Position numbers and translations under genes: made by a program
Shown: positions 1,536 to 22,500 of the stretch, in pieces
How the letters are laid out: each line of letters opens with the position of its first letter
How positions within the stretch are numbered: position 1 is the stretch's first letter
Notes under the pieces: generated by a model
The model's database searches: none
The model's input: the letters and a program-made list of their open reading frames with translations, nothing else
Told to the model about the DNA's origin: nothing
Source of the DNA: Planctomycetota bacterium
Lineage (GTDB): Bacteria > Planctomycetota > Planctomycetia > Pirellulales > Thermoguttaceae
DNA: 36,973 bases
Reading direction: 5' to 3'
NCBI GenBank assembly: GCA_025353625.1
Contig: JANXOJ010000438.1
Coordinates: 1 to 36,973 of the forward strand

Positions 1536-4500
1536 TTACTTTTCCAGATCGGAAATAAGCTTCTGAAAATCGTCCCGCTTGCGGAGGGGGTCGAGGTCTA
1601 CGTCCTGCTTCAAATGCGCGACATTCCGATAGCCCTTGGCGACTGCCCGACGCAATAGGTCCACCGCACGCAGTAAGTCTTTCTCTCGCGACTCCTTTTC
1701 GCCGCTTGCACTCAAGCGGGCAAAGACGTCGGCCGCATCGCAAAAGGCGTCCGGCAGTGCCGCCGATTCGGCCAATAGTTCGGCCGCTCGTCTGGCGTTC
1801 GGCAAATCGTTCTTCGCCAGCAAGTTGGCCGCAACCGCTTTTAAGACGGGTGCTTGAAGATCGGCGGGCAGCTTGCTCACCGACAATACCTCGGCGAGAA
1901 CTTGCGGAAAGTGTTCGCAGAGGGCAATCCGAATCGTCAAGTTCTCGACATCTTGCTTGAAGACCTCCGGCTTATCGAAGCGTTGGGCCACTTCGAGGGC
2001 TTTTTTGAACCACTCGGCGGCCTTGGTGAAATCGTGCGTCGCCTGCGCGGTTGCGCCGATCGTTTGACAGATTGCCAGCATGTCGCGCTGGGCTTGGGCG
2101 TTCTTGGGGTCCGCCTCCGCCAAACGCTCATCGATAAGCCTCGCCTTTTGGTAGAATCCGATCGCCTCTTTGGACTGGCCCAATTGCCGGGTTACATCGC
2201 CGAGTTTCTCGTAGCTGAAACCAAGGTCGCGTTGGGTTTGGGCATTTTTGGGATCGGCCTCCGCCAAACGTTCGCGGATTACCAATGCCTTGTTGTAGAA
2301 AGTGATCGCATCGAGAGCCTTGCCCGACTGCTGCGATGCGCGGCCAAGCTTGTTGTAGCTGACGGTCAGGTTGCGTTGAAACTCGGCATTCTTGGGGTCG
2401 GCCTCCGCCAGATGCTCGCGTATCGCTCGCGACTCTTGGTAGAAGTCGAGGGCTTCTTTCGCCTCGCCCGATTTTCTCGAAACGTCGCCGAGTCGATCGT
2501 AGCCGATGCTCAGTTCATTTTGGATTTCGGCATTCTTAGGGTCGGCTTGGGCCAATCGAACGCGGATCGCCAATGCCTTGCGGTAATAGTCCAACGTCTC
2601 GACTGTCTTCCCCGACGATTGCGACATATCTCCGAGGTTGTTGTAGCCGGTGGCCACGTCGCGTTGGGCCTGGGCATTTTTGGGGTCGGCCTCTGCCAGA
2701 CTTTCGCGGATCGTGAGGGCCTTGCGGTAAAAATCGAGGGCCTCCGCCCTCTTCCCCAATCGATGCGACACCTCGCCGAGCCGCTCGTAGCTCACGCTCA
2801 GGTTGCGTTGGGCCTGGACGTTTTTGGGGTCGGATTGGGCAAGACTTTCGCGAATCGCCCGCGCCTTCTCGTTGAAGTCAAACGCCTCCTGCGACTGCCC
2901 TACTTGCATCGTCACCTCTCCGAGCCGCTCGTAGATCACACTCAAGTCGCTTTGGGCCTGAACGTTCTTGGCGTCGGCATCGGATAGACCCTGGCGGATT
3001 GCAGATGCCTTCCGATAGAAATCGAGTGCCTCGTGCGTCTGGCCCAACTGCCGCGCCACGTCGCCCAGTCGTTCGCAGTTGACGCTCAATCCGCGTTGGG
3101 CCTGTCCGTTTTTGGGTTCGGCCTCGGCGCGATGCTGCCGGATTGCCAACGCCTTGAGATAATAGTCCTGCGCATCCTGGGTCTTCCCCATTTGCTGCGC
3201 GATATTGCCGAGGCTGATGTAACCGACGCCCAGGTCGCTTTGAGCCTGCGAATTCCTCGGATCGGCATCGGCCAGCTTTCGCGCTAGTTCGTAGCCGTTG
3301 GCATATTCATTTTTTGCCGCCAACGTGTTGCCCATCACCTGCTCCACATCGCCCATGCGGAAATACGACCAAACGAGCGTTTGATCCGGGGTGCCCTGCT
3401 TCTCCGCCTCCTGAAGGAGCTTTTCCAAGCCTTTACGGGCGTTTTCCAGCAGATCCTTTCGCAGGTCCTGCGTGCCCGGTCGGGTTTCGAGCTTGGTCTG
3501 GATGCCGAACACCATGTCGTTCAACGCATCGAGCGCGAGTTGAAACCGCCGCACGGCCTGGTCTCGGGAGGTATCGGCTCGCAAGGCGTTCGCGTCGGCA
3601 CGATGGGCATTTTCCACGGCCTGCCGACGCGCCGCATCGGTCAACAACTGTTGTTGTTTGACGAGGACCGTCGTTACGGCCAGGACCACCACCGTCGCCG
3701 CGAGCAGGCCGACGGAGCCGACCACCTGGGTCTTGTGCTTGCGAGCCCACCGCGCTGCTCGGGCCGACCATCCCTCGCGAAAGGCGGAGACCGGCTCGTC
3801 CGCCATCCAGTGCTCCACATCGTCGGCGAGAGCTTTGCAGGTTATGTAGCGGTTGGCGGGCTTCATCGCCATCGCCTTCAAGCAAATCGCTTCCAAGGGC
3901 TTGGCAATCTGGTCGTTGACCGCACGGGGCGGCTGAAATTCCCCGCGCTGCACGTTGCTTAAAATCGTTTCCACATTTTCGCCTTCGATCGGCGGACGGT
4001 TCGTCAAGAGGCAGTACAGCGTCGCCCCGAGACTATAGACATCGCTGGCTGGGCCGAGCAGATCGAGTCGTCCGGCGGCCTGTTCGGGGCTCATGTACTG
4101 CGGCGTGCCGATGGCCGCACCCATCATCGTGGCTGCGGAACCGCTGATCGATGTCGGCTTGAGCGGCCCTTCCACGGATTCCGCAATCGACTCCGGCCGA
4201 TCGACCGATTTGGCCAGCCCCCAGTCGACGACCAGCGTTTCACCGTACTGCCCGAGCATGATGTTGCCCGGCTTGAGATCGCGGTGCAGCACGCCGCGAC
4301 TGTGGGCATAATCGATGGCATTGCAAACATCGAGAAACCGCCCGAGAAGCTTTCGCAATTCGACCGCGCGCTCGCCCGAGTCGAGCCGCTTTCCCCCGCG
4401 ACCGTGGAATCGCTTCACGGCCTCCTGAAGACTGTCGCCGCGAATGAATCGCATGGCATAGTAGGGCCGGCCATCGGCATACTGCCCGAGGCCATAGACC

Positions 4501-5087
4501 GGCACGATGCCCGGATGCTCCAGACCGCCGGTGATTTCAGCCTCCAAGAGGAAGCGCGCGCGACTTTCGGCGTTGTCGGCATGCCGTTCCTGAATTTCCT
4601 TGAGGGCCACTTCTCGCTGTAGCTCTTCATCGCGGGCCACCGAGACTTGCCCCAGACCGCCCTTGGCATGTGGGCGGAGGATACAAAAGCGCGTGCCCAA
4701 CGAGGTGGAACCGCCGACCGAGCGCGCCTGCGACGCATAGGGATCGACGTGTCGCGGGGCGGCGGCGAGATGGATGAGCGATGCCTGCACTTGCGGGTCG
4801 GCGATCTGGCGAAGGTCTTCCCGCACCGCCCCCACGGAACTGACCGCCGCCAGACTCTTTTCGGGATCGTTGTTGTGCTGCTTGAGGTGTTCGAGAACCA
4901 GGGCTTCCAAGAGTGCGCGACGGTCGGCCGCCAGGGCCTTTTGCGCAACCAGAATTTCTCCGAGGGGCTTGTCCTTGGCCAGAACCCAGGCGTTCATAGC
5001 ACCGACTAAGGCGTCGCGGCTGATGAAGTCCATCTGCACGGCAAGGATGCCGAAAAGCAGATTGCGATCGTGACTGTTCGTGCCCAT
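1536..5087 (-). CDS. Serine/threonine protein kinase with TM segment and C-terminal TPR array
   Basis: ORF 1536..5231; start MGTNSHDRN at 5087 preferred. Kinase motifs VLHRDLKPGNIML, DWG (VVDWGLAKS), GTPQYMSPEQA, SDVYSLGATLYCLLT; TM VVGSVGLLAATVVVLAVTTVLV; then repeated ~48-aa TPR-like units. Confidence 0.92.
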   Translation of the reverse strand: MGTNSHDRNLLFGILAVQMDFISRDALVGAMNAWVLAKDKPLGEILVAQKALAADRRALLEALVLEHLKQHNNDPEKSLAAVSSVGAVREDLRQIADPQVQASLIHLAAAPRHVDPYASQARSVGGSTSLGTRFCILRPHAKGGLGQVSVARDEELQREVALKEIQERHADNAESRARFLLEAEITGGLEHPGIVPVYGLGQYADGRPYYAMRFIRGDSLQEAVKRFHGRGGKRLDSGERAVELRKLLGRFLDVCNAIDYAHSRGVLHRDLKPGNIMLGQYGETLVVDWGLAKSVDRPESIAESVEGPLKPTSISGSAATMMGAAIGTPQYMSPEQAAGRLDLLGPASDVYSLGATLYCLLTNRPPIEGENVETILSNVQRGEFQPPRAVNDQIAKPLEAICLKAMAMKPANRYITCKALADDVEHWMADEPVSAFREGWSARAARWARKHKTQVVGSVGLLAATVVVLAVTTVLVKQQQLLTDAARRQAVENAHRADANALRADTSRDQAVRRFQLALDALNDMVFGIQTKLETRPGTQDLRKDLLENARKGLEKLLQEAEKQGTPDQTLVWSYFRMGDVEQVMGNTLAAKNEYANGYELARKLADADPRNSQAQSDLGVGYISLGNIAQQMGKTQDAQDYYLKALAIRQHRAEAEPKNGQAQRGLSVNCERLGDVARQLGQTHEALDFYRKASAIRQGLSDADAKNVQAQSDLSVIYERLGEVTMQVGQSQEAFDFNEKARAIRESLAQSDPKNVQAQRNLSVSYERLGEVSHRLGKRAEALDFYRKALTIRESLAEADPKNAQAQRDVATGYNNLGDMSQSSGKTVETLDYYRKALAIRVRLAQADPKNAEIQNELSIGYDRLGDVSRKSGEAKEALDFYQESRAIREHLAEADPKNAEFQRNLTVSYNKLGRASQQSGKALDAITFYNKALVIRERLAEADPKNAQTQRDLGFSYEKLGDVTRQLGQSKEAIGFYQKARLIDERLAEADPKNAQAQRDMLAICQTIGATAQATHDFTKAAEWFKKALEVAQRFDKPEVFKQDVENLTIRIALCEHFPQVLAEVLSVSKLPADLQAPVLKAVAANLLAKNDLPNARRAAELLAESAALPDAFCDAADVFARLSASGEKESREKDLLRAVDLLRRAVAKGYRNVAHLKQDVDLDPLRKRDDFQKLISDLEK
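2080..3270 (-). repeat. Tandem ~144-bp (48-aa) TPR-encoding repeats, roughly 8 units
   Basis: Recurring LAEADPKNAQAQRDLSVSYERLGDVSRQLGQSKEALDFYRKALAIRE-like units; the nucleotide motif 'ttggggtcggcctccgcc' recurs about every 144 bp. Confidence 0.85.
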
Positions 5088-5276
5088 AAACCCACCCTTT
5101 TTTATCCCGGCAAACATCCCAGTAAAACGCACCGATATCGCGCAGTCGGTTGGGAATTTATTCCCGATGGCCATATATCGTGCAAACACCCATGAAGCAC
5201 TCCACGAGCGAGGATCGAGCATGCGTTTCAAGGCACATTCCTTGCTTGCGCTGCGGGCTTGGATGGTCGCCGCCGA

Positions 5277-6839
5277 TCAGAACTTTCGGTTCACAAAGAC
5301 GCGAAGTTCGCCGTCAAAGCCTCGGTCCTCGGTGGCCGGCGTGGCGTAGCCCACGGTCAAGGTCGTATTGCCGATGACCGCATGCGCTCCGACCGTTATA
5401 TCCACATCATTATACCGCGCCGTGCCATCTCCGATCAAGAAGTTTCCCGCCTGGAGGGCCGAGGGGGCATTTACGCCGCCGGTATAGTGCGCTTCGATGA
5501 CCGCCGCCAGGCCGGAAAGTCGCCGGGCCGGATTGCGGTAGAGCCAACGCCCAATCGAGGCGTCGACGAAAATTAGCGTCTGGTCGTAGAGGTCTCCGAC
5601 GGATACCAGGCCATTTCCGGCCACGTTGGCGGAGACGGGGTCGCCGCTGGCAGCAACGTCCACCTGCACGTAAACCTGACTGAACCATTCGTCGTTGGGC
5701 TTAACGAGCAAGCCGAAGAAAGGAAGCAGGTGCGTCGACTGGTTGACGATCTTTAGCAGCGGCGTACCGTCGGCAAGGCCCACGTTGACGCCGGGGGCCG
5801 TGGGAATCGAGATCCCCAACCCCATGCTCAGCGTCCAAGTCTCCTCTTGGGCAACGATCCCTTTAAGAATGACTTCCATGTCGCCGAACTGCCCGGTCGT
5901 GCCGAAGCCGGTCTGGTCGGCGACGATGTTGCTCGATGCCATGATACCCATGGGGAATCGCATCTCGACCGACATGCGACGATCGAAGAACGTCTTCTCG
6001 AAGCCGGGAACGAAGCGATTGGCGTCGGATGGCGTCGACAGCACGGCGTCGTGAAAGAAGCTGTAGTCGCAGAAGACGCGGTCGGTGGGAATGGGACTCT
6101 CGTTGTCCGAAATCCGCTGCCGCCCGAGAACGCCGCCGCTGGGACTGGGGATGTTGATAGCGATCGGCGACGGTGTTATGAGGTACTGGTACTGATAGTT
6201 TTGGGCTACAACAAAGGCATCGTTTGGCCGGATCGGGTTGGGGTGAGGTTTTAGCTCGGTGGCTTGGGCATCGGTTCCGCTCACGCTTACCGTGGAAAGG
6301 CTTTGATTGGCCGTATTTTGCGATGCGTAGAACTTGAACAGGGCCTGCGTTGCCGAATTTTGATACGCCGAATCGCTATTCGTTAGTGGTATCGGTTTTG
6401 AGGGATCCGTGGTGGTGGTGATGTTGGCGATAAAATCCGTGGGCTGCAAGATCGAACCAAAAAGTGGTGTCGCATTGGTGGAGAACACGAGCGATCCGGT
6501 TGGAAGAAACTTTGGTATTGCCGGGGATGGCAACAAAACGAACTGCCCGCTTTGTACTGGTCCCAAGTGACTTGGCGGCTGAAGTTTGCCTTGCAGCGTC
6601 CGCCCGCCCCCCATGTCGCCGATCATATTCGGCGCGGCAGTGCTGGCGGAACTGTTCGCCGATTCGTCGCGGCCTTCGTCGGACGAGCCATCGCCGCTGG
6701 GAGGAGTTGTTTGGGCCGCATCGGGTGCCGGTGCAACGGGCTGGCATCGGGCCGCATTGCTCAAGGCAAAGGCGAGTGCTAGTGCCCCCATCGCCATGAG
6801 CCGGCATTTCGACTTTTGTTTCATTGCGGTCTCCAACAC
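5277..6839 (-). CDS. Secreted/outer-membrane beta-barrel-like protein of unknown function (transporter/porin-like)
   Basis: 520-aa ORF; signal peptide MKQKSKCRLMAMGALALAFALSNAARC (alternative start 6824); C-terminal alternating beta-like strands ending ...DGELRVFVNRKF with terminal Phe, as in many OM barrels. Confidence 0.7.
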   Translation of the reverse strand: MLETAMKQKSKCRLMAMGALALAFALSNAARCQPVAPAPDAAQTTPPSGDGSSDEGRDESANSSASTAAPNMIGDMGGGRTLQGKLQPPSHLGPVQSGQFVLLPSPAIPKFLPTGSLVFSTNATPLFGSILQPTDFIANITTTTDPSKPIPLTNSDSAYQNSATQALFKFYASQNTANQSLSTVSVSGTDAQATELKPHPNPIRPNDAFVVAQNYQYQYLITPSPIAINIPSPSGGVLGRQRISDNESPIPTDRVFCDYSFFHDAVLSTPSDANRFVPGFEKTFFDRRMSVEMRFPMGIMASSNIVADQTGFGTTGQFGDMEVILKGIVAQEETWTLSMGLGISIPTAPGVNVGLADGTPLLKIVNQSTHLLPFFGLLVKPNDEWFSQVYVQVDVAASGDPVSANVAGNGLVSVGDLYDQTLIFVDASIGRWLYRNPARRLSGLAAVIEAHYTGGVNAPSALQAGNFLIGDGTARYNDVDITVGAHAVIGNTTLTVGYATPATEDRGFDGELRVFVNRKF

Positions 6840-7522: not shown

Positions 7523-10500
7523 TTATGCCTGCGGGGTTGGTTGATTCGGATGACCCAACGGACTTTCTGGAAAACGATTCCAGGGCCAGAAGCGACACAA
7601 AAGCGTAGCGACCATTATCGCAAGCCCCGCAATGCTGGGTGAAAGCCAAAGCCACCACCCCAAGCCGAGTGCAATTCCGAAGAGATAGGGCCATTGGATA
7701 AAGGAATTCCAAGCGACATTTGATTGTGACACCAGGGCAGCCAGCGCGATCAGTGCAAGAAAACCGGCAATCTTCGTGAAGTCGGCGTACCACGCTCGCG
7801 CGGCAATGGGGCGATAGTAGAGCGTAATCGAATCCGACGGGCCTTGGACCGTGTACGTCGAGCCCGGCGGCCCGGCGTCGGCCATCCGTTGCCACTGCGA
7901 GCAAAGTTCACCGTTGGATGTCGCATCTTTTTTATCGGGTTGGCCAATTTGGAAAGCGTCGTCGCGGGCCGCGCCGGCCTCGAAATTCGGCGGCCCGGCA
8001 ATCGTCCAAAGTGTTCGTTCGACCGGCAGGTCGCCCAATCGCGGGGCATCAAAACGGCGATGCTGGGCCCAACCGTCGCGAGCCGGATTGGCGGCATTCG
8101 GCGCGTAGTAAAGCATCTCGACGCGGGCGTTGGGCCGGTCTCCGGAGAGCGGCACCAGCCACTTGCACGGGCCCGCCGAAACGGGATCAACCGGCACGCC
8201 GGCAACGGAAAGTTGCAACAGTTCGGCCCCTTTGGGCAGTTCGGTGGGGCAATCGAACGTTTGCGCCGTTTCGACATCGAAGATTGCGAGGCCCAGCGTG
8301 CGGCCATCGCCCTGCCAGACAATCCGCAGATCGGCTGCGCTGACGCGGGTCGAGTTGCCAGAGTGCCGTGATTCTTGCAGCGTCGCCTGCCAAGGTTCGC
8401 CGGTTACTTCGAGCATGGTTGACTCCGCGCCGCTGAAGAGATTGGGCAAGTCAACGTGCCGCAGATTTTGCGTCGTCCAGAAGATAGGCCGGTTATCGAC
8501 CTTGGCCGGCAAGACGAGGTACTTCTTGAGGGACGCGATCTGCCGCATGGAGATATCCGCGACGGCCACTTTGCGCGCAGTGCCGTTGAGCGGGCTGGTT
8601 ACCGTGAACGCGAAGTCCCCGGAAATCGCGATTGTTGGCCGAAGCAAGAGCCGAGTGCGCTGGTCGGAAACGTGACTTGCCGAAACCACCATGGGAGGGC
8701 TCGTTGTGAACGGCCCGGTCCAATACGCGGGCGCGTCGAGTTCGATCACGTCGACGAGACCGTTGGAAACGTGCATGCGGCAATCGACGACCGCTTGCCA
8801 ACGATCGCCTTCCCAGCTCAGGCGAGAAATCTGCTCGGCCTTTGTTTGTGTACGATTCGGCTTGACGCCGATCGTTACTTGGGATGCCTTATTCGGATCG
8901 ACATAGAACGACTGGACGAGGCGGCCGGTTTCGTTGCGCCCGGAATCGTCCTGAGCCGGTTTGACCTCGGCCAGCCCGGCAGTGCCGGCAATATCGACGA
9001 GTGCGCCCGATTGGCGGTAGATATATACGAGTGCGTTCTGCATTCGCACATCATCGAATTTCACGAAGGGCAAGGGGACGACGCGTTTCTTTGGCAAGGA
9101 TTGGATGCCGCGAAAGTGAAATGCCTGTCGCCCCGTCACCGGCGCGGAAAGAAAGACGGTAATGCGACCGGTTCGATCTTGCGACCAACGAGCCATGCGT
9201 TCAACGCCATCGGAAGTAATGGAGATCGATTCGATTCGCAAAGGGGTAGGGGCCATCAACTGGTATTGAAATACCGAGCCGCCCGATGTTTCAAACTGAG
9301 CATCGACACGCAGCCGGCACGAATCGGCATCGAAGATGAGGGTCTGATTCTGGTCGCCGACGGTTTCCGCCAACTTTGGGTGCGTTGAGAGACCGAATTC
9401 CGCCTCGTCGTCGCTCAACTGGGCGGCGACTTGCGGTGCCGCATTGCTCGTTCCCCAGCGGGCAAGGAAATCAGGCACGCTCAACGAATCCTGGTTCCGT
9501 GCCGACGGAAGTCGATAATCCAGGCTCGAATCGATCGAGACGGCGACGCTTCGACGCAAGAGTCTGCCATTGGCGAGTTCCAACTTCGGCAGCCGCAATG
9601 TGCCCACACTTGCCGCATCGCTGCAAAGAAAGTGCAGGTCGACCGTGGCGGAGTCGACGACCGACCGCAGCCATTGAATTTCGATGGCATCGGTTGGACC
9701 ATTTCCGCGACTGGATTGGATGGAAACGCCGTCCGCAGGCTCCGAGGGAAGCAAACTCAAGGAAGGATCGGCCAGCAATCGCAGCCGACGGAGTTGGCCT
9801 TCGGAAACCTTTACCTTAAGTCGGACGTCGAGGAGTACTGCTTGCGGCAGAACTTTCATCCAAAGCAACTGTTCGATTTCCGCAACCGGACTTCCGCTGT
9901 TGGAAGGCTGCGGATCCTGCCAGCGAACCGAGAGCTTATCGCCAGATCCCAACTCGGCATTCCAACGCGATTCGATCTCTTCCCAGCGGACCTCGCCGCT
10001 AGCGGCGGGAAATGTCACGGCAGGCAGGGCAGCGGGAACCGCGAACTCGAGTCGCGAGCCTGGCAACCGAGGGATGGAAAGATCGAATCCCGTACCGTTG
10101 ACTTTCTCAACGGTTGAACGATCGCCGTGCAGTAAGTTAGGCCGCAAAGAAATTTCCAGGCGGTGCTCGCCCGCCTCGGCGATATCGACCAAGAGTGCGC
10201 TTCCATCGGGCTCCCATTCCGGTTGAACGAGGCGACCGTCGAGCGTTGCTTCGCCCGGCAAGAGCTTTCCTTCGTCGCGACGAAATGGGATGCGGACTTG
10301 AGTGGGGGCGTTGAACGTGCGGATGGAGAGATCCGCCGTAAGTCGATCGACGGCATACTGCCGCGCAATCGCATCTTCCGACAACGCGCCGCGGTAGACG
10401 GCCGACGCGATGAGCCAACCTTGCGGCTTGTCTGCCTCACGGGATGCTGCACGGTAAAGCTCATCGAAAAATGCGCCCGGAACGAAGTACTTGCCCTTCG

Positions 10501-13500
10501 TGGGCTTTTGCTTCTCGTCCACGGGGATGAAGACGGAGTAGCTGGCGGCCGCAACCTTCGTCGGCGATGCGGCCGCCGGTGCGGGTCGGTCCTTCTCGGC
10601 GGCATCGCTCCACGAGCCGCCCCAGAACAGGACACCGGCCAGCAGGGGCGCGCCGAACGGCACGTCGGATGGACAACGTTTAAGCGGAATCCCGAACATC
10701 GGAACATTCGTGCGAGTGCTGGGCAACTCGCCATGAGGCGGTCGAGTTGGCACGATGGCGGCCCACTTTCGCAGCACAACCAAAGCAACACAGAAGAGCG
10801 TTGCCAAAAATAAACGTGAAAAAATCCCCGCCAACACCGGCGGCACCACGATCGCGGCGATGCCCGCGACGGCGGCAATGCCCAAAAGCACGGCCGGTCG
10901 AGGAACCATTCGCAAGAATCCAAAACTGACCAATAAAAGAAACAGCAGCCAACCGATTCCTTCCATCGTCGCTTGGTGGACGGCGGTTACGCTAGCCTCG
11001 GTATCGAGCAAGTCAAAGCAATACTCGGACTCGCCGGACGGCCCGACTTCCTGCGCGGCATCGGTCGGGCTTCCGGTGTTCCAAAGCCGAATCGACGATC
11101 GCCAATCTTCGCTCCTAAGAGGGTTGAACATCGCCTGACCGCTACGGCGTCCCAGAGGGCCGAACAGGTTTTGCATTACGCACGGGGGATCGATCGGCGG
11201 GCCTTGAGAAATCCCGGTGGAACTACAAACGACGTAGCCCGGCGGCAACCGAAGGTGCCAACGGCGCGTAAGCACCGGTAGATCGATCTGCGGGATCGAT
11301 TCCTGTAGGCGATGGAAGGATTGCAAGGGAGATGCCGATGTGGAAAAACGAACGGCCAGCATCACCATTTCCTCACCTGGGGGCAAGTCAACGATTAGTT
11401 TAACGGATTCGGCATTTGGCGAGTCGGCATCGCTGAAGGATGCGGCCACGGGCCGATCGTTGATCGAGACTCCGTGGATACTCTTTTTCGATTGAGGTGC
11501 TCCGAACGAAAGGCACGCCTGTCGCCGACCCGCACATTGCAAGCGATAGGTCACCAAGTGATCGGCCGCACCGTTGCTTGCAAATTGTGAGTCGAGCGTG
11601 CAATCCCATGCCCACGTCCGCGAAGCAACCGCAGCCGCCGCAGTCGGCGAGTCGCCGGAACGAGCCAGCACCAAGGCCGGCTCATCCTGAGCGGCCGATT
11701 CGCCCAACGGATCGTACTGGTAGGTAGCGCGAATGGTTTGATACTGCCCCCGTGCGACCGGTTCGGTTGCCAGCAGTTTGAGACGGCAGTTCTTAATCGC
11801 GACGGGCTGCGTTCCCACGCTTCTTATGACGAGCGTGCCCTCTTGGCGTGCCGCGTCGGGCAAAGATGCAAGGCTAACGGGAACGTCGCCGGAGAAATTC
11901 ATCGCGCGCGAGGCACGAATCTCGATGGGGCTGTTGCGTGGACTCCGAAATGCAATTTCCCACGATTCCTCTTCGGTCGATTGGCCGCCGTCCGAGTCCT
12001 GATGTTCCATCCACGGCGTGGCGGTGAAGCGACTTTCGTCGAGGCCCGCAACCGACCAACGAAAGGGGACGTCCCGTCGCTGCGTAAAGTGGACGAGGAC
12101 GCGGTCGATGCGGGCCGATTTCGATGGCGTGCAGACGAATGCGTAGCTTTCCTGAAGAACCTTGTCGGTTACGGTTGCTTCGCCGCGAACGGTTGCCAAG
12201 TAGCTGGGCTTGCGGCTCTCCATGGAAACGAGCAAGTTGGTCGCGTCTCGGTCATCTCGAAACAGCAGTTCGTCCGGCGACTCGCCAAGCAAATCAATTT
12301 CAGCCGCGCCAAGTTGCTTGGGAGTTATGCGCTGCAATCGCTCGTCGTTTGTCAGCCGCAGTTCGTAGGCACCGGTCGTTCGCAGGTCGATAAGCCTCAC
12401 CGACTCCGCAAGGGAGATAAATCGCAGGGGTACAATGTCGCCCAAAGCCAGGTTTCGCCCTGGGAAGGCAAAGAGCCTGCGTGCCACAATCACGAGCCGC
12501 ACGGGACGAGCCGCCGTCAATGACCGCGCCAATCGAACCGACAGGCGATGTCCTTTGCCGCGCGCTTCCAACGTCCAGTCATCCAGCGCGTCGGCGGGCT
12601 GCGATTCGACCGTATCGATGATCCAGTTCGGAGAAACGTCGGCATTGAGTGTGAAGTCCGATCCCGCCATCGCTTGGAACTCCGTGGCTACGCGGCTACT
12701 CATCTTGCCTTGGCCCAACACCGTCGATGTGACGGACACGGCTTTGACCTTGGTAGGCCGTTGAACGAGCGAGAGTTCCAGGCCAGCGTCCGGTTTGAAC
12801 GCTTCAAATGTCAATTGTTCGCCGCTTTCCGGAGCCGGAAGTGGGGCCGCGTCCGTTTGCCGACAGCCGTTGGGTGTAATCTGGTCGATGCAAAACGGCA
12901 GCGGCAAGCGCAGTTTCATCGCGTGCGATTGCCGCACGAGGTTATCGGGAAGGATGCGAGGCAACTTCCAGGATGGTCCGGCAACGAGCGGCGCGATGGC
13001 TCGCACGCGCAACTTTAGACTTCCCTTGCCAAGAAGTTTTGGAAGCTCTACTTCCAGGCAAGAACTTTTGCCATCGCCTTTCGCGACAACATCCCAGGCG
13101 AGCGACTTGCCGCCACACGACACTTCGATCGGTTCCAACGGCGAATCCATCGACAGAACCACGCGTTGCAAAGAAACATCGTGCGCCGGCACGCTCAGTT
13201 CGGTGATAACTTCCAAGCCGTGCGGCGAAAAGTCGTAGCTGCTCGATTGGCTAGCCAAGATGAGGTTCGCCGCTTGGCTCTGGGGCTCAACTCGGGTGAG
13301 TTGAAGGCGAATGCGGCTTTGTCCCCCCATTTCGATCTGCCAGCGACGGGCACCGGCATCGGTTGCCGCGGTCCCGGCGTCGGTCGCATCGCGGACGATG
13401 ATTCCAATATCAACGCTGGGCTTCCATTCCGCTGGAAGTTCGAGGGACAGGCGATGCACCGGACAGGGCGGAAAAACTATCTCAAAAACGACGCTATTCG

Positions 13501-14044
13501 CCGCATCGTGCCGGCCGATCAGGGACCAAGGCAGCGTCAACTGCCCCGATCGGTCGGCCAACAAATGCAGCTTGCCATCGGCCGCGACACCCACTTCCGC
13601 AACGAGGCCGCGCGTTGCCGGTTTGCCCTCGGCGGAAATCCATTTCGGTTTGCCGATAGCCAGATTGCAGACACCCAAGGGGACGAGCGTGGCGGAAGCG
13701 GCGGACTGCGAGACGACGAGCGTGCCGCTGCCTAACAGAAGCGCATCGCCCTTGAGCCGCGCTTCGTAGTACGACACAACCAGCCCGGCTCCATCGCGCT
13801 CAGGCATATCGGGAGAATTGCGTTGGCTCAAACCGAGCAGCCGCTCGAATTCGGCTCCCTCCATCGGCAGGTACTTCGTTTGGCCGCTGGGCCAGTTGCT
13901 CATGCCGTCGGGAATGTAGACTCGTCGAAAGCGACTTGTGCCGTTGCCGTCGTCGGGTGGCATCGACTTTTCCGGCGGTGCCGCGAACGTCGGCAGCGAT
14001 ACGGCAATCAAGCAAAACGTTAGTAACGTAATTGGAAGTCTCAT
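7523..14044 (-). CDS. Giant (2173-aa) secreted/membrane-anchored protein of unknown function, two tandem homologous modules
   Basis: Continuous ORF; signal peptide MRLPITLLTFCLIAVSLPTFAAPPEK; internal TM cluster (GIGWLLFLLLVSFGFLRM...VLLGIAAVAGIAAIVVPPVLAGIFSRLFLATLFCVALVVL) at about 10.75-10.95 kb and a C-terminal TM cluster (IAGFLALIALAALVS...WPYLFGIALGLGWWLWLSPSIAGLAIMVATLLCRF). Confidence 0.85.
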   Translation of the reverse strand: MRLPITLLTFCLIAVSLPTFAAPPEKSMPPDDGNGTSRFRRVYIPDGMSNWPSGQTKYLPMEGAEFERLLGLSQRNSPDMPERDGAGLVVSYYEARLKGDALLLGSGTLVVSQSAASATLVPLGVCNLAIGKPKWISAEGKPATRGLVAEVGVAADGKLHLLADRSGQLTLPWSLIGRHDAANSVVFEIVFPPCPVHRLSLELPAEWKPSVDIGIIVRDATDAGTAATDAGARRWQIEMGGQSRIRLQLTRVEPQSQAANLILASQSSSYDFSPHGLEVITELSVPAHDVSLQRVVLSMDSPLEPIEVSCGGKSLAWDVVAKGDGKSSCLEVELPKLLGKGSLKLRVRAIAPLVAGPSWKLPRILPDNLVRQSHAMKLRLPLPFCIDQITPNGCRQTDAAPLPAPESGEQLTFEAFKPDAGLELSLVQRPTKVKAVSVTSTVLGQGKMSSRVATEFQAMAGSDFTLNADVSPNWIIDTVESQPADALDDWTLEARGKGHRLSVRLARSLTAARPVRLVIVARRLFAFPGRNLALGDIVPLRFISLAESVRLIDLRTTGAYELRLTNDERLQRITPKQLGAAEIDLLGESPDELLFRDDRDATNLLVSMESRKPSYLATVRGEATVTDKVLQESYAFVCTPSKSARIDRVLVHFTQRRDVPFRWSVAGLDESRFTATPWMEHQDSDGGQSTEEESWEIAFRSPRNSPIEIRASRAMNFSGDVPVSLASLPDAARQEGTLVIRSVGTQPVAIKNCRLKLLATEPVARGQYQTIRATYQYDPLGESAAQDEPALVLARSGDSPTAAAAVASRTWAWDCTLDSQFASNGAADHLVTYRLQCAGRRQACLSFGAPQSKKSIHGVSINDRPVAASFSDADSPNAESVKLIVDLPPGEEMVMLAVRFSTSASPLQSFHRLQESIPQIDLPVLTRRWHLRLPPGYVVCSSTGISQGPPIDPPCVMQNLFGPLGRRSGQAMFNPLRSEDWRSSIRLWNTGSPTDAAQEVGPSGESEYCFDLLDTEASVTAVHQATMEGIGWLLFLLLVSFGFLRMVPRPAVLLGIAAVAGIAAIVVPPVLAGIFSRLFLATLFCVALVVLRKWAAIVPTRPPHGELPSTRTNVPMFGIPLKRCPSDVPFGAPLLAGVLFWGGSWSDAAEKDRPAPAAASPTKVAAASYSVFIPVDEKQKPTKGKYFVPGAFFDELYRAASREADKPQGWLIASAVYRGALSEDAIARQYAVDRLTADLSIRTFNAPTQVRIPFRRDEGKLLPGEATLDGRLVQPEWEPDGSALLVDIAEAGEHRLEISLRPNLLHGDRSTVEKVNGTGFDLSIPRLPGSRLEFAVPAALPAVTFPAASGEVRWEEIESRWNAELGSGDKLSVRWQDPQPSNSGSPVAEIEQLLWMKVLPQAVLLDVRLKVKVSEGQLRRLRLLADPSLSLLPSEPADGVSIQSSRGNGPTDAIEIQWLRSVVDSATVDLHFLCSDAASVGTLRLPKLELANGRLLRRSVAVSIDSSLDYRLPSARNQDSLSVPDFLARWGTSNAAPQVAAQLSDDEAEFGLSTHPKLAETVGDQNQTLIFDADSCRLRVDAQFETSGGSVFQYQLMAPTPLRIESISITSDGVERMARWSQDRTGRITVFLSAPVTGRQAFHFRGIQSLPKKRVVPLPFVKFDDVRMQNALVYIYRQSGALVDIAGTAGLAEVKPAQDDSGRNETGRLVQSFYVDPNKASQVTIGVKPNRTQTKAEQISRLSWEGDRWQAVVDCRMHVSNGLVDVIELDAPAYWTGPFTTSPPMVVSASHVSDQRTRLLLRPTIAISGDFAFTVTSPLNGTARKVAVADISMRQIASLKKYLVLPAKVDNRPIFWTTQNLRHVDLPNLFSGAESTMLEVTGEPWQATLQESRHSGNSTRVSAADLRIVWQGDGRTLGLAIFDVETAQTFDCPTELPKGAELLQLSVAGVPVDPVSAGPCKWLVPLSGDRPNARVEMLYYAPNAANPARDGWAQHRRFDAPRLGDLPVERTLWTIAGPPNFEAGAARDDAFQIGQPDKKDATSNGELCSQWQRMADAGPPGSTYTVQGPSDSITLYYRPIAARAWYADFTKIAGFLALIALAALVSQSNVAWNSFIQWPYLFGIALGLGWWLWLSPSIAGLAIMVATLLCRFWPWNRFPESPLGHPNQPTPQA

Positions 14045-17000
14045 GGTGCCGCTTTCGGGTGCAGCAGGGAGAGCGTTGCCGTCGACGAAGAGGCCGATGC
14101 GACCGCGCCGTGGCCGAACTCAACGTTTGCGGTCGATTCAACGGCCGGTGCCGGCTGCACGACGATGGCAGCGAGTGTGCTTGCCGACTCGGCTTGAAAT
14201 CGCGGTGGACGCGCGGCGGTCAATTGCCGCAACAAAGCTGCCAACAACGAAAGCCCCACGCCCACGGCGGACGCTTCGGCTGCGATCGCGGCAAGGTCCG
14301 GCCAATTGACCGCTAGCCCGCCTAAGACCACGACGAAGATCAGCAGGCTTGCTGGGCTTCGTGCCGCTCGAAAGTAAATCAACGCGAGCCCGATCAGGAG
14401 AGTCGCCCCGGAGGCGCACAACACGATCATGGAGCGACTCGCCGTGCGGATTTCGCACGGAGGCAGCTTGCCGATCGAACTGTAGAGGTAGCAGTTCTCG
14501 CCGACCGGTGCCGGCGATGCGCCCGGATGGCGAAGACCGGCCCACGCTTCCAACTCCTCCTGGGTCAAAACCGGTTGGCGTCCATAGTAAAATGTATTCC
14601 AGGCCCAGGTGAACTCGGACGTCATATCGCGCGGTGTGGCAATCACATGTTCGTCGGGCGGAAGGAGAAGCTGCCAGTAGATTCGCCGCACCCAAACGTC
14701 TTCACCGAGGCTTGGAAAGTCGAAAGCAATCTTCCCGCGCGGCGGTCGATCGCCCGAGAACGCATATCGCAGTTCGATCACATAGCGGGGCGATGCCGCG
14801 TCGGAACTCAACGGCACCAACAGCGAGCGTTCGTTGCGCGGCTGGGCTGCAATGGGAACGCCGTTAAGTTGCACGCTTGCTTGATCGCGGATTGCGCCCT
14901 CCGGCAGGGTAATTTCCAACTCGCGGCGGTGGCTTGCGACTTGAAATACGGCTCGGTCCAGTCGAATACCGCCGGAAGTCTTGCTGATCCAGGTCTGGAC
15001 CCAGGCACGCTCGACGACGAACGCCGATTCGCTGCTCGCCTCGCCCTGGACCGTGAGGATGGCCTCGGTAACTCGCTGGGTTGCTGTAAATTGCAGCGGT
15101 GCCGATGTTGTCAATTGCGGGAGGTTATTTGCTTCCTTGACCCAGGGTTCCGATTGGATGGCAACGTGCTGCCCGGCGGCAGGCGCGACGGATAGTTTAT
15201 TGCTTACCAGGTCGGCCTCGATCGGCATAATCAGCGGCACGCTCCACGGTTGGGCCGGATCGCTTGCCGAGAGAGGCTTTGCAATCGAGTAAAGGGCGGT
15301 TATCCGGCACGAACCGATGCGGGACTTTGGCAGCGCGATCCGCATGCGTAGCGATTTTTCGCCGTTGTCGGCCTTTTCGCTGAGGGGGATTGAAGAGAGC
15401 GTCTGATCCTCATACTTTAAGATCAGCCGCCCCTTCTCCGTCAACTCCCTGGGAACTTCAATCACAAAATAATCGGTCGGCTCGTGTTGGATCGTATAGT
15501 CGAGTTGTTCCTCGACCCGACAATCCTGCGGATCGAGTACGATGCGATTCGAGACATCGACGGAGATCGACTGTGCTTGCGGGCGGAGGTCGGCAGCGAA
15601 AACGGCCTTGGCGGCGTCGCTGCGATAGAAGAGCGGCTCCTGCTGCCGCGTCGGAAGTTCCGCCGTTGCTTCGCGGACGAACGGCACGGCCGTTTGTTGT
15701 CGGAGCAGCCCCGCCATCCTTTTCTCGTCCGGAACGACCTCGACGTTGTCGGCTGCCACAACGACCACGATGGCCGCCGACGGAGTGCTCGCTTGCGGTT
15801 GCGGAAGCATCACGGAAATGGACTTCGTATCGCCGGCTATTGGTTTGTGGGCCTTCAGACGGATTTCAAACTGCCCAATAGTTGGCTGTGCTAGCGGAAT
15901 GGTTACGGTCGGTGCCTCCGTTTCTGCGGGATCGCGGTCGATCGATGCGACGCTGTCTGGCCCCACTTCGTCAATTTGCCAGTCGCGCATGGCCACTTCA
16001 ACGGCAAAAATCTTAGCACCGCGAACCGTGTAGCGCAGCCGGGCCTCAAGTCGAGTCTGGTCTCGGTCGACGAACAAGACGTACTCCGGCTCGACGCTAA
16101 TGCGCGTCTTGCGGGGAACCAATCGCGCGGTCAACGATGAGGATTGCGTGGAGTACTCGAATCCTGCCACAATATCCTTGCGACGCACGGTTTCAGGAAT
16201 CTGGTCGAGCTGCTGGGTATCGCGGTTTGGACCCCAAAGCACCTGCCAATTGCCGGCTGCACCTACGGCAATCGTGCCCCATTGGCGGCTGGCACCGACT
16301 ACTTCAATGCCGGCAAGTTCCGTCCATGCGTCCCGTCGCGTTGGATCGCAGGTCCGCTTTGTTGTCAAATGAATCTCAACCGGGCCGGTCGTTCGTTTCG
16401 CGAATTCCACTTCAACTTGCCGACGAATGTTCGAGCTTCCGTTAAGTCGTTGTACGTCCGAAGGTTTCGCACCCTTGGGAGGTGCGGAAGGTCCGTCAAT
16501 CGCGGACAAGGTGAAGCCGTTGGTGTTGCCGGGCACCAAATCCGTATCTGGCGGAAGAGCGATTCGAAAGTGGTCGAACGCATCGCCGTAGCTGCGCACC
16601 GAAAAGGTTGCGTCGGTTTCAATGCCGCCGCGGTCGAGGTTCACCAACAGTGTGCCAAAGGCTTCGAGAATGACCGGCGACCCACCGGGGCGACTGCTCG
16701 GCGGACGCCAGGATAGCTCGAAAGCGCCGCTCAATCCGACGACGGCCAATTCCGTCGCGTTGGCTTCTATCGCCGTCGTTTGCAACGTTGCCCCTTCCGA
16801 AACTTTGGCCACGGCCTTTGACTGTGGCACTTTGAGTTTCAACTCAGAGGTAGTTGCCCGAGGGACCACGAGTCGCAGTCGAGTCTCTTGACCGGCAGGC
16901 ACGAGCGGCACGAGCATCTTCAAGGTAATCTGGTGCTGTTGCCCGGCGGGGCTGCGTATCCAGGCAACGTAGCCGTCGCCGTCTCCTTCAAAACTGAGGA

Positions 17001-17505
17001 AGTGTTCGCCCGGCCCTTGAAACTGGGCCGATTCGCGGAGCATGGCCCGATCGAGCCGCAACGGGATGCGCGTCCACTGCTCCTCGCGAACGAGGATTCC
17101 TATTTTCAAATTCAATTCGACGTAACCGGTTGCGGAAACTTCGCCGCTGGCAGAAAACTGTTGTACGCTGTAACGCGGTCGTCGATCGCCATCCACGAGT
17201 TGATGCTTGAGCTTGTAGAGCTCCTCAAAGTCCTCCAGCGTAAAGTTAGGGACCGCCTGAAGATTGCCCTGCTTATCCTTTAGATAATAGATCGCCGGAC
17301 GGCTCTCTTCAATCGACTGCGTCCGCATCGCGGACGATGGCATCGGACCGCGCGGCTCGGCGGAGGGAGGCTTTTCGGGTTTATCGAGATCGGTTGCGCC
17401 GGCCGTACCGGAGGAACTCGCCTCCTGTGCCGCCAACGGCGTCCCCGCGCAAAGGATCGGGCATAGCAATAAACTCATCACCGTTTGTATCGCAAGGCAT
17501 CGCAA
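14041..17505 (-). CDS. Large (~1154-aa) secreted/membrane-anchored protein of unknown function, one module related to those of the downstream giant protein
   Basis: ORF with signal-peptide-like N-terminus (TTG at 17505, or ATG at 17478: MSLLLCPILCAGTPLAAQEASS); C-terminal TM cluster SMIVLCASGATLLIGLALIYF...ASLLIFVVVLGGLAVNW; overlaps the next gene by 4 bp (ATGA). Confidence 0.85.
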   Translation of the reverse strand: MRCLAIQTVMSLLLCPILCAGTPLAAQEASSSGTAGATDLDKPEKPPSAEPRGPMPSSAMRTQSIEESRPAIYYLKDKQGNLQAVPNFTLEDFEELYKLKHQLVDGDRRPRYSVQQFSASGEVSATGYVELNLKIGILVREEQWTRIPLRLDRAMLRESAQFQGPGEHFLSFEGDGDGYVAWIRSPAGQQHQITLKMLVPLVPAGQETRLRLVVPRATTSELKLKVPQSKAVAKVSEGATLQTTAIEANATELAVVGLSGAFELSWRPPSSRPGGSPVILEAFGTLLVNLDRGGIETDATFSVRSYGDAFDHFRIALPPDTDLVPGNTNGFTLSAIDGPSAPPKGAKPSDVQRLNGSSNIRRQVEVEFAKRTTGPVEIHLTTKRTCDPTRRDAWTELAGIEVVGASRQWGTIAVGAAGNWQVLWGPNRDTQQLDQIPETVRRKDIVAGFEYSTQSSSLTARLVPRKTRISVEPEYVLFVDRDQTRLEARLRYTVRGAKIFAVEVAMRDWQIDEVGPDSVASIDRDPAETEAPTVTIPLAQPTIGQFEIRLKAHKPIAGDTKSISVMLPQPQASTPSAAIVVVVAADNVEVVPDEKRMAGLLRQQTAVPFVREATAELPTRQQEPLFYRSDAAKAVFAADLRPQAQSISVDVSNRIVLDPQDCRVEEQLDYTIQHEPTDYFVIEVPRELTEKGRLILKYEDQTLSSIPLSEKADNGEKSLRMRIALPKSRIGSCRITALYSIAKPLSASDPAQPWSVPLIMPIEADLVSNKLSVAPAAGQHVAIQSEPWVKEANNLPQLTTSAPLQFTATQRVTEAILTVQGEASSESAFVVERAWVQTWISKTSGGIRLDRAVFQVASHRRELEITLPEGAIRDQASVQLNGVPIAAQPRNERSLLVPLSSDAASPRYVIELRYAFSGDRPPRGKIAFDFPSLGEDVWVRRIYWQLLLPPDEHVIATPRDMTSEFTWAWNTFYYGRQPVLTQEELEAWAGLRHPGASPAPVGENCYLYSSIGKLPPCEIRTASRSMIVLCASGATLLIGLALIYFRAARSPASLLIFVVVLGGLAVNWPDLAAIAAEASAVGVGLSLLAALLRQLTAARPPRFQAESASTLAAIVVQPAPAVESTANVEFGHGAVASASSSTATLSLLHPKAAP

Positions 17506-17742: not shown

Positions 17743-17887
17743 GGTTTTTAGCCCTAGAAGGCACAGACAGCACACAGATGAGGCAGAAAGACGGGGCAAT
17801 TTGTTCGATGGTAACGTTCAGATGTTGCTCTTACGGAATTTTCCTCTTCATCCCTGGGGGTTCTCCGTGTCCTCTGTGGATAAAACA
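17743..17887. repeat. MITE-like short element with imperfect inverted ends
   Basis: Plus-strand left end GGTTTTTAGCCCTAGAAGGCACAGACAGCACACAGATGAGG and minus-strand right end TGTTTTATCCACAGAGGACACGGAGAACCCCCAGGGATGAAG are visibly similar in inverted orientation. Confidence 0.45.
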
Positions 17888-18711
17888 ATTTTGTTCCGAG
17901 AGCTGGTGTCGATTCCAATCGCTTTCAAATAGGCTTCCGAAACTTTCTGCGTCCAAGGGTGATGAAAGAGGATATCGAGCAACTCAGCCCGCAGTCTTCG
18001 GCGGTTCGCGGGGATTACGATTGCACCGATATTCGGAATCTCTTTATCGTCGGGGTCGTTGGAAAGCCGTTTCTCAAGATGAACGCCATCGAAAAGAAAC
18101 TTGGCCCCCCACCCGGGAAACTCTGGATGAATGATTGGAAGATTGATGTCGTGCAGGACGACGACCGCCCCGTTGGCAAGGGAATCGAGCGTGGCAAGTA
18201 GATCGAGGACCGGCCACGGATGTTCGTGGCAGGCGTCGATAAACATGAAACCAATCCCACCGCGACCAAAATCCCGCGCCGCATCGTAAGCCACTGCCGG
18301 CGAGCGAAACGTTACCCGCTTGAGAAGTGCCGCCGGCAATTGTTCGCGGGCCGCGTCGCCCGACCGCTTCGTCTTATTTGCAAAAAAGTCGACGTCGATG
18401 TCGTAGGTCACGATATCGTAATCCGGTTCGACGCGGCCAGACTTGGCGGCGAAATGCATTGCATGGCATAGAAGTCCGGTCGAAAAACCGGACGCCGTTC
18501 CGATCTCGACAATCGGACTGCGTGCGTGCTGAAACGCTTCGCGAAAGAGAAACCTCGCATCGTGGTACGAAACCGACGTTCCATTGAGCCATTTAGGTTG
18601 GTTGTGCCAATAGGAATCGCTGAAGTTCTCCGGCGGCGTCCGTTTAACGGATCGAGTTGTTTTCGCCGATAACTTGCTTGCATTCGTCGATCTTGCTGCT
18701 TTGGTTGCCAT
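17848..18711 (-). CDS. Class I SAM-dependent methyltransferase (Methyltransf_24/CmcI-like)
   Basis: 287 aa; SPIVEIGTASGFSTGLLCHAMHF (motif I), DIVTYDIDVDFF, GIGFMFIDACHEHPWPVLDL, GAVVVLHDINLP. Confidence 0.75.
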   Translation of the reverse strand: MATKAARSTNASKLSAKTTRSVKRTPPENFSDSYWHNQPKWLNGTSVSYHDARFLFREAFQHARSPIVEIGTASGFSTGLLCHAMHFAAKSGRVEPDYDIVTYDIDVDFFANKTKRSGDAAREQLPAALLKRVTFRSPAVAYDAARDFGRGGIGFMFIDACHEHPWPVLDLLATLDSLANGAVVVLHDINLPIIHPEFPGWGAKFLFDGVHLEKRLSNDPDDKEIPNIGAIVIPANRRRLRAELLDILFHHPWTQKVSEAYLKAIGIDTSSRNKIVLSTEDTENPQG

Positions 18712-19560
18712 CTACTGTGCCTGCGCCTCTCGATACATTTGTTCGTCCGCAAGACAATACTCGAATTTTGTCCCTTGCAACGCGGCGACAACTTCGCTGA
18801 AGTTCTCGATAGTCTCTTCCAGCGGAAGGTAGGACTGCTTCTTATAGGTCGGCTGACGTTGAAAGTCGGGCTGGATTCCCAGGTGATTCGCGATTGTTTT
18901 TCGGCAGTCGGTTGCCACCGCGCCGCTAGGCTCCGGGAATACTGCGTCGTAGTCGAGGGCCAAATAGTTCTCGTAAACGGAATAGTAATTGTCGATCATG
19001 GTACTTTCGGCGTCGCAATAGCTCAGTTGCCGCATGAGGTATCCAATGTCAACGTGGACCTTACGGTCTCGATAGTCTTTTTCCGAACGGTCCAGCACCC
19101 AGACGCCGGACTGCTCGGCCTTGACCGTCGATACGACGAAGCGCAAATAGTTGCCGCGGCGAAGATTGAATACCCGCAGGCCGAACTGTTTGGTGAGATA
19201 GAAAAGATACGGCGCGAGGTTCCAGCGATACGATTCGGTGAGGAAGTGCGCATTGTTGTACTTGACGTCGATGAGCATGAACCGCTTCATCGAAAAACAG
19301 CGCAGGTAGTCGAGGAAGTTCAGGAACAGCTTCTCGTGGTTTTCGGGATTCAGTCGATTCCAATCGCGGCCGGCATCGTCGCGGATGAAATTGAAGTAAT
19401 TGATGTGGCGAAGTTCGGGCTCTTCAAGGGAGTCGCGGTCGGCAACCGAAAAGACTTCGTTGTGGCAATAAATGTCCGGATGCGTTTCCAGCACCGAGCG
19501 CAGGGCGTTCGTTCCGCTCCGCTGCCGCGCCAGTAAGATGATGATATTGGAGTAATCCAT
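18712..19560 (-). CDS. Stf0/NodH-like sulfotransferase
   Basis: 282 aa; N-terminal PAPS-binding-like motif IILLARQRSGTNALRSVLETHPDIYCHNEVF; FMLIDVKYNN; typical length. Stop codon abuts the methyltransferase ATG. Confidence 0.8.
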   Translation of the reverse strand: MDYSNIIILLARQRSGTNALRSVLETHPDIYCHNEVFSVADRDSLEEPELRHINYFNFIRDDAGRDWNRLNPENHEKLFLNFLDYLRCFSMKRFMLIDVKYNNAHFLTESYRWNLAPYLFYLTKQFGLRVFNLRRGNYLRFVVSTVKAEQSGVWVLDRSEKDYRDRKVHVDIGYLMRQLSYCDAESTMIDNYYSVYENYLALDYDAVFPEPSGAVATDCRKTIANHLGIQPDFQRQPTYKKQSYLPLEETIENFSEVVAALQGTKFEYCLADEQMYREAQAQ

Positions 19561-19582
19561 AGGTGCTTATCCCAGGAGCCGA

Positions 19583-22500
19583 CTACTGCCGACTCCGCAG
19601 TCCGGGCAATTGAACGAGGTGGGAATACATGGACGGCGGCAGAAGAACGTCGCCGATCGAGGCCCGATGCCGGCCCCAATTCAAACAGGCGGGCCGCACG
19701 TACTTACCGGAACAAATCTCCGCTGCAATCCGCGACAATAGCTCGCTGAACTGCCCGCCGACGTGTTCGACGGTGAATTGCGCGCGGACGGTTTCCTGAG
19801 CGTCTTGCGACATTTGTGCCAGGCACTTGGGATCGCGCCACCATTGCACGAGCTTGCGTGCCCAATCGTCGTAATCTCGCCCCTCGACCAGGAATCCCGT
19901 CTTGCCGTGCTGCACCAATTCCGGGATACCGCTGTCCATCTCCGCGACCACCGGCACGCATCCGTGGGCCATGGCCTCGACCACCGACAGAGGAAGCCCC
20001 TCGAACTCCGAAAGCAGCACGAAGAAATCGCTCTTACTCAACTCGTCGAAAACTTCCGCCTGCTTCATGCGGCCGCAAAGCTTGATGCGGCCGTCGCGGA
20101 GGTGAGCGTGGGCCTTGGCCAGAAAAACCTCTTCCGTCTTCTCGTGGGGAACGAACCGGCCGATCAACGAGATCGTGTAGTGTACGCCCGTCTTGTCCAA
20201 TCCGGCGGCCAGATCGAGTACGTCGAGAATCCGCTTTTGATATTGCACGAGCCGACCGGTATAAATCAATCGCAGACGCCGCGACCGCGAGGGCTTCCTG
20301 GGGACGATCTGCCGCTCCAAGATGCTCGAATTGTGGATGACTTCGGCACGTGCGCCGACCGCGGGATTAAGCCCGGCAACAACACTTTTGATGTGCCCCG
20401 AGACGCAGACGACCGCATTGCAGTAGGGGCCTAGCCGATACGTTTGCTCGTAGTAGTCGTTGTCGTCCGATTGCGACCAGGCGACGACGCCGACCTTGTC
20501 CGACAGTGCCGGCGCGACGCTGTTCGCGGCGAAGTCGTAAGCCATCAGCATGATGCACGGGCCATTGTTTTCCAAATGGGCGACCAACGACTGCCATAGG
20601 CCCTCCGTGCCCGGAAGCCGCCGGTCCAGGTAGGAATACGGAATCTCCGGGAGGTGTCCCCCGCCGACCGTGGTTTTGGCAATGGTCTCGCGGTCCCGCG
20701 TGAAGAGAATTTCCGCGTTCCAACCTCGGCGAATGAGCTCCTTGCCGATCGCCTCCAAGGCCGAGTTGACTCCGCTAACCCACCAGTCGCAGCAGGGAAT
20801 GAATACCTTGCGCGTGGATGTCGCCTTGCGGGTTTCGGGAACGGTGCAAATCCTTTCCGGTACGCAGCCATCGCGGACCCCCAATTCAAGCAACGAATAG
20901 GCGTAGCCATGTACGTTTTCTTCCGCATAGGGAAGCAAGGACGAATTGGTCGGATACTTGCCCAGCGTTCGCGCGGCTGCATGAAAGGAGTCGCTCGAAT
21001 TAAATACCACGCGCGCCGAGCGGGGCAACGATGCTTCCAAGACCGCCTTCGGGCTTGCGGCCAGCCGTTCGTCGCAGAGAAGCATGCTCGGTACGCCGAT
21101 AACGTTCAGCGATTCCACGACGCGCGGTGTCGATGAAATCGCCGTGAACGGCCATCGCCCCGCCAGCGTCTTAATGAGCAGGCGCTGCGCCGAATCGCGG
21201 AGCACATCGCAGCGCAACTGATGGTCTTCAAGGACGACATACTTGGCGTTTTGAAGTTCCGCCGATGCGACGTTGCGCAATCTTAGGAAAACGATGGGGC
21301 AGCTTACGTGGTAGGTTGACGACAGAGCCTCGGAAATCCGCACGGCTCGCATCGCTTCCTCGCGACGCTCCCCATCGGCAAAGAAAATCGTCGTCCCGCT
21401 TTGCCATTGGCCTCGCTCAATTCTTGGAAACGGCCCACCCGCTAGACTCTCGACGAGCTCCTTGTGCAAATGGGAAACGAAGCGACCTTCCACGAACCCG
21501 AACGCAAGGTAGTGGGCCAGTGGATTGAGCGCCCCACGTTCGATGTCGGGATAGGTGTCGAAGTAATACTCGCTTCTGAACAAAGGATTGGGCTGGCAGG
21601 CGAGTCGTTGTCCCACATTGGTAATATAATGTACCAGGGCGTTGATGCCAGCCGCACGAAGTCCGGGCGACTGGTTGTAGTAATACTCGGTATCGAAAAG
21701 CGGGTTCGGATCCTGCTGGCCGCGAACACCGTGTACGACAAAGTGCAGCAACGGATTGATCCCGGCCACTTCCACCCCCAAATACCGTCGCGAATAATAG
21801 GCCGGATCGAAAAGCGGGTGCGGGTAATAACCCTGCCGGTAGCCGGCTTGCAGATAGTGGATCAGGGCCTCATTGACCGAGGGGAACTCGCCCGCTTGCT
21901 GCGCGTAGTGCCAGCCGTCGAAAAGCGTGAAGAGGTCGGAAACGTACTGCGGCTCAACCAGTTCTTCGATGCCGCGCACCGGACGTGCCGATCCGTTGAG
22001 CAAGTGGCCGCTTATCGGCTGCCGCGGTGTTTCCGCCTCGACTTCATCCGAACGGATCAATCCCCGCAACGAAAGCGGCTTGGCATTTTGCTTACGCGGT
22101 TCGCCGGATAGGGCGTAAATCAGACAGCTATCGTCGTCGCGTGCAATCAGAGCATAGTTGCTCTCTAAGTGCGCTCGAAACTTACTGTAGTGATCGAGCC
22201 ACCAAAACGAGTGCTGCGGAAAGACGAGGTATTCGGCTCCCTGCCGCCGCAACGATTCAAGGTGTCCAATGGCGGCGTCGCAGTCACCCGGATAATAGCC
22301 GGTATAGGAACCATCTTCGCTTCTGGGGAAATGCCAAGTGGTTCGTCCTTCCAACTCCAGAATTGTCGGATCGCCCTTGCTAACGATCGCCACCACCGCC
22401 CCCGAGGCGATCGACTTACCAACGACGCGCTGGAAACGGCGTGCGAATTCCAAGTAGGCGACTTCCGGGTCGATCGGCGGAGGTTCGTCGGCGATGCCAT

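Follow-up and report, generated by a model that had tools for sequence, protein, structure and literature searches.

Three homologous giant membrane-anchored modules encoded by a planctomycete operon: candidates for an envelope scaffold or tether

In this work, a two-gene operon encoding three homologous giant modules was analysed in a stretch of planctomycete DNA of 36,973 nucleotides (the window). We tentatively propose, as a reading that we consider quite possible while short of probable, that these modules are the subunits of a non-enzymatic inner-membrane complex with long periplasmic rods, which would act as a scaffold or tether of the cell envelope. The proposal draws on sequence profiles, family-wide hydropathy and a predicted fold. 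The two open reading frames of 2173 and 1154 aa named in an earlier note on this DNA are both present, and the features on which the argument is built are the following.

14041 to 17505, minus strand: gene C, 1154 aa, one module, TTG start listed; consists of a signal peptide, an ectodomain of ~950 aa, a 3-TM anchor and a Ser/Thr-rich C-terminal tail
14611 to 17184, minus strand: repeat array of module C, five units of ~175 aa, residues ~108-965
15832 to 16092, minus strand: half of unit 3 of module C, predicted beta-sandwich, residues 472-558 (AlphaFold2 pLDDT 84.4)
14041 to 14427, minus strand: C-terminal part of C (residues ~1027-1154), with anchor segments crossing the membrane at ~1027, 1051 and 1072, followed by the tail
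7523 to 14044, minus strand: gene AB, 2173 aa, ATG start, two modules in tandem fusion
10715 to 14044, minus strand: module A, AB residues 1-1110, signal peptide and five repeat units
10595 to 10714, minus strand: linker, AB residues 1111-1150, putative cytosolic loop followed by a hydrophobic segment at ~1119-1145
7526 to 10594, minus strand: module B, AB residues 1151-2173, five repeat units
22896 to 23696, minus strand: gene of the inositol-monophosphatase (IMPase) family, a conserved neighbour that lies upstream of C in 18 of 40 loci

The stop codon of C and the start codon of AB overlap by 4 bp (ATGA), and the order of transcription is C, then AB. An in-frame ATG nine codons into C (codon 10, ~17478) is a possible alternative start. 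Module A carries the N-terminal motif 'VYIP...YLP..EFE.L' and three hydrophobic segments at ~1029, 1050 and 1071, and module B the motif 'VFIPVD...YFVP..F.ELYR' and three hydrophobic segments near its C-terminus. The division of AB was formerly placed at residue ~1110; it does lie near there, although the boundary is better given as about 1110-1150.

The homology of the three modules was evaluated with profiles built from orthologues of the same order (39 for A, 39 for B and 33 for C), with AB cut at its central hydrophobic cluster. By hhalign, A matched B with a probability of 100 and an E-value of 2.7e-40 over 954 columns, A matched C with a probability of 100 and 5.1e-41 over 973 columns, and B matched C with a probability of 99.9 and 1.1e-36 over 956 columns. 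These alignments are collinear from end to end, while reversed-profile controls reached at best an E-value of 1.2e-3 and a probability of 19. The earlier note had described three copies of one module and had named profile-profile similarity beforehand as the test of that claim; the similarity proved strong, and the triplets of N-terminal, mid-module and pre-TM motifs pointed out there fall in register in the alignments. A finer repeat, which had gone unremarked, was observed within each module. Comparison of each profile with itself gave matches at an offset of ~163-190 aa (E-values of 5e-17 for C, 3e-16 for B and 1e-7 for A), so that a module consists of about five units of ~175 aa following a short N-terminal motif, '[IV]YIP...LP...F..L'. 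In module C, the units begin at ~109, 284, 472, 650 and 824, and the spacing is most regular in module B, at ~170-173 aa. Each unit has two halves, of which the first (~87 aa) is beta-rich and the second is less conserved.

Family-averaged hydropathy showed that each module ends in three hydrophobic segments. The charge around them follows the same pattern in A, B and C, with a positive first loop, a neutral or negative second loop and a positive tail. By the positive-inside rule, this pattern places the large domain outside the inner membrane, and the membrane anchoring by a terminal TM cluster that had been claimed for every module is thus sustained. The N-termini are of a predicted exported type. 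The further hydrophobic segment at AB ~1119-1145 (~1119-1134 by family-averaged hydropathy) lies directly ahead of module B, in the position of a signal peptide, and would re-export that module; where module B is encoded by a separate gene, as in loci L098 and L119, it begins with a hydrophobic segment of its own. The positively charged, S/T-rich tail of C is probably cytosolic. An ST.T.P-like motif was seen in the C tails of 9 of 33 orthologues, compared with a mean of 0.3 in shuffled sequences (window ~14041-14200), and it is a possible phosphorylation or docking site.

Both genes are nearly universal among the relatives sampled. Of 60 relatives taken from this family and order, 58 have C and 57 have AB, and in every fetched locus with both genes on one contig they are adjacent, with C before AB. 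The co-conservation that had been suggested as a check is present, and the exact 4-bp overlap of start and stop occurs in about half of the 32 C/AB pairs checked. The planctomycete origin proposed from the letters alone also agrees with the genome, which has 36 hits to the planctomycete-typical SBP_bac_10/DUF1559 family against none in 14 control genomes.

The same genome contains a second homologous operon, which the earlier note did not report. A single-module homologue, P0002 (contig C712, 1161 aa), was detected with the operon-1 profile at an E-value of 7e-27, together with two open fragments homologous to the giant genes on contigs C49 and C536. Since C49 bears the last 25 codons of P0002, it continues C712. 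A P-loop protein, P0003 (199 aa; L100, G000:C712, 3893-4492), is encoded directly upstream of this operon; it was rejected as an operon-2 partner because the remaining operon-2 loci covered did not show it. Complete second operons occur in other genomes; one example is L114 (1175 and 2696 aa), from another family of the same class, in a genome where the first operon is complete as well (L113, 1171 and 2226 aa). In a FastTree phylogeny of 41 modules, whose long branches are not used to claim a deep branching order, six position-specific clades were obtained: A, B and C of operon 1 and A', B' and C' of operon 2, with C49 placed with A' and C536 with B'. With the operon-2 C' profile, relatives were detected in 57 of 150 genomes of a phylum-wide sample, and the loci from outside the class that were placed in the tree are of the operon-2 type. 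One of the loci, L133, has each module as a gene of its own in a tandem row (1128, 1237 and 1138 aa), with C', A' and B' as the respective best models, and in L098 (G017:C42) unusually long modules are likewise encoded by three genes (C 1670, A 1506 and B 1682 aa). The separate A and B genes of some lineages, also unreported in the earlier note, mean that the conserved item is the set of three modules and not the fusion. Some deep lineages deviate, with two large ORFs or with an ECF sigma/vWA partner. No relatives of the giant modules were found in the viral contigs and plasmids searched.

The gene neighbourhood gives few indications of function. The IMPase gene is here 5.4 kb away from C owing to three inserted genes at 17848-22681, encoding a methyltransferase, a sulfotransferase-like protein and a 1032-aa glycosyltransferase; together these form a glycan cassette specific to the lineage, set into a junction that is otherwise conserved. 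A rimI gene follows the operon in ~10 loci, and both IMPase and RimI look like housekeeping neighbours. No other gene recurs in most loci, and no conserved partner points to a pathway. Two further genes lie downstream in the window, one for a 520-aa protein (5277-6839) with a signal peptide and a final F that reads like an outer-membrane beta-barrel and has no match in Pfam or NCBIfam, and one for a 1231-aa Ser/Thr kinase with a C-terminal TPR array (1536-5231; Pkinase E-value of 8e-33). An assignment of function from these window neighbours (glycosyltransferase, sulfotransferase, methyltransferase, kinase and possible beta-barrel) was rejected because they are not conserved across the order.

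The ectodomains could alternatively sense envelope stress or ligands, with the 3-TM anchors and cytosolic tails signalling to ECF sigma factors or Ser/Thr kinases, which we regard as rather unlikely. Five deep loci (L146-L150) have a giant gene of the AB type that follows the gene of a membrane protein with an anti-sigma-like N-terminus and periplasmic vWA and YfbK_C domains. An ECF sigma gene precedes the vWA/YfbK_C gene in four of the five, and all the junctions in L148 are 4-bp overlaps. Beside the L143 operon there is also a divergent ECF sigma gene, and the recurrent ST.T motif of the C tails and the kinase gene downstream in the window point the same way. However, within the class the neighbourhoods of operons 1 and 2 show no recurrent gene for a sigma factor, an anti-sigma factor or a kinase, and the tail motif is absent from most orthologues. 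The ECF/YfbK-like pair of this genome is not linked to the giant genes; its locus (L154, G000:C446, 7781-10519) has an ECF sigma gene, then a gene for a 734-aa protein matching YfbK_C, then one for a 987-aa protein.

The module proteins have no match at curated cut-offs in Pfam or NCBIfam and no sequence match in the PDB, in agreement with the earlier statement that no known family is recognisable, and the papers and passages of the literature covered contain no description of these modules. The fold of the unit was approached by structure prediction. A model of two units from six alignment rows was not confident (pLDDT 45), and no meaning attaches to its matches in the PDB. The half-unit C 472-558, predicted from an alignment made of the repeats in the window only, gave an all-beta sandwich. 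When this model was compared with the PDB by Foldseek, M1 aminopeptidases made up most of the best 50 matches, led by LTA4H from Xenopus (4gaa, TM 0.74) and including E. coli PepN (2dqm, TM 0.70), APN and the malaria M1 enzyme. These matches have probabilities of ~1.0 with E-values of 0.03-0.2, none being at or below 1e-3. The part of the M1 enzymes that was matched is presumably their N-terminal sandwich. On the sequence level, PF17900, the M1 N-terminal domain, gave a weak hit in 1 of 73 members (E-value of 0.099), and 6iff matched weakly (E-value of 0.11). The likeness, which adds a feature to the earlier description, is treated here as a predicted fold resemblance and not as family membership, because the motifs HExxH (1 of 33 C and 4 of 39 AB sequences) and GxMEN (0 of 33 and 0 of 39) are not conserved.

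The columns conserved at 88% or more consist of W, P, G and L with a few R, Y and Q, and no Cys or His column reaches 80% conservation. The conserved residues are mostly structural and show no catalytic signature. A few conserved Arg, Tyr and Gln residues near the anchor (including R848, R851, R976, R1024 and R1049) could mark a site of binding or other function. This composition also bears on the doubtful reading, clearly weaker than that of a sensor, in which the beta-sandwich arrays bind polysaccharide or protein for uptake, export or surface display. A cellulose-binding domain (6qfs) among the weaker fold matches, the glycan cassette upstream and the possible beta-barrel gene downstream would agree with substrate handling, but the cassette and barrel genes lack conservation in the order, conserved genes for transport or glycans were not found, and the aromatic or acidic clusters that mark a binding site are missing from the conserved columns. 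A reading of the modules as a protease that has degenerated, or as a trap for proteases, with kinship to M1 aminopeptidases or the alpha-2-macroglobulin class, as the Foldseek matches and the PF17900 and 6iff hints might suggest, is highly improbable and largely refuted by the missing motifs, since besides HExxH and GxMEN the thioester CxEQ is not conserved (0 of 33 C and 2 of 39 AB sequences), no Pfam M1 catalytic domain was detected in the module proteins, and no A2M domain was matched in the window proteins, with one weak C3_CUB2 hit (E-value of 0.051) in 1 of 20 C orthologues.

We hypothesize that C, A and B are three homologous inner-membrane subunits, with A and B fused in this genome, that would assemble into one hetero-oligomeric complex. 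Each ectodomain of ~900-1000 residues, consisting of some five ~175-aa units in a row, would be exported via its N-terminal signal and held by the C-terminal three-helix anchor; a sandwich like the N-terminal domain of M1 aminopeptidases would make up at least half of every unit. The ectodomains may form periplasmic rods, and their job would be mechanical or organisational rather than enzymatic. Within the wide periplasm of planctomycetes, the complex could tether the inner membrane to the wall or the outer membrane or space it from them, or it could offer other envelope proteins a platform. The features of an envelope scaffold or tether that were found computationally are an export signal, a repeated folded ectodomain, a membrane anchor and the lack of a catalytic site. 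The six position-specific clades are as expected if the three modules hold distinct, fixed roles. The ectodomain system in a planctomycete-like envelope that was considered plausible at the outset therefore holds in its homology, anchoring and origin, and its work as an envelope system is what we infer. A bolder form of the proposal, which we consider unlikely, is an undescribed envelope machine, in which an obligate trio of giant inner-membrane subunits, paralogous and rod-like in shape, would set the geometry of the periplasm or of the membrane invaginations. An M1-N-terminal-like sandwich would have been repurposed to build these subunits, and the trio would have been duplicated as two operons (six modules).

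In Planctomycetota the periplasm is enlarged, the membranes are invaginated and the wall is divergent, and to our knowledge the parts behind these features are mostly unknown. A giant set that is universal in the order, spread across the phylum and outside any database family is a concrete candidate for such parts. The candidate is testable, as genetic tools exist for Planctopirus limnophila (PMC4910669), gene essentiality has been mapped across its genome (PMC10632474), and both operons are present in another family of the class (L113/L114). The ~175-aa repeat with its M1-N-terminal-like sandwich may further provide a handle for annotating many giant proteins now called hypothetical, and the ECF sigma/vWA linkage in deep lineages keeps a role in envelope sensing in play.

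Compared with known systems, the predicted half-unit resembles the N-terminal domain of M1 metallo-aminopeptidases (LTA4H, PepN/APN; PF17900), an all-beta sandwich of ~87 aa; however, the modules repeat the sandwich ~15 times in three membrane-anchored modules, without the catalytic domain or motifs and without a significant sequence match. Bacterial alpha-2-macroglobulins of the YfaS/YfhM type are also giant envelope proteins of many beta-sandwich domains, whereas the present modules have neither an A2M Pfam match nor a conserved CxEQ, and instead carry a C-terminal 3-TM anchor and form a three-module set. The operons of ECF sigma factors with YfbK-type vWA proteins are related through the deep planctomycete AB relatives that lie in them, although in the class both of these genes are missing from operons 1 and 2. 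The proposed role is closest in kind to that of Deinococcus SlpA, reported to be a large multidomain connector from the outer membrane to the wall (PMC9388160), and thus likewise a multidomain link between envelope layers. No shared sequence family is shown, and in contrast to SlpA the modules are anchored by C-terminal TM helices and occur as three paralogues together.
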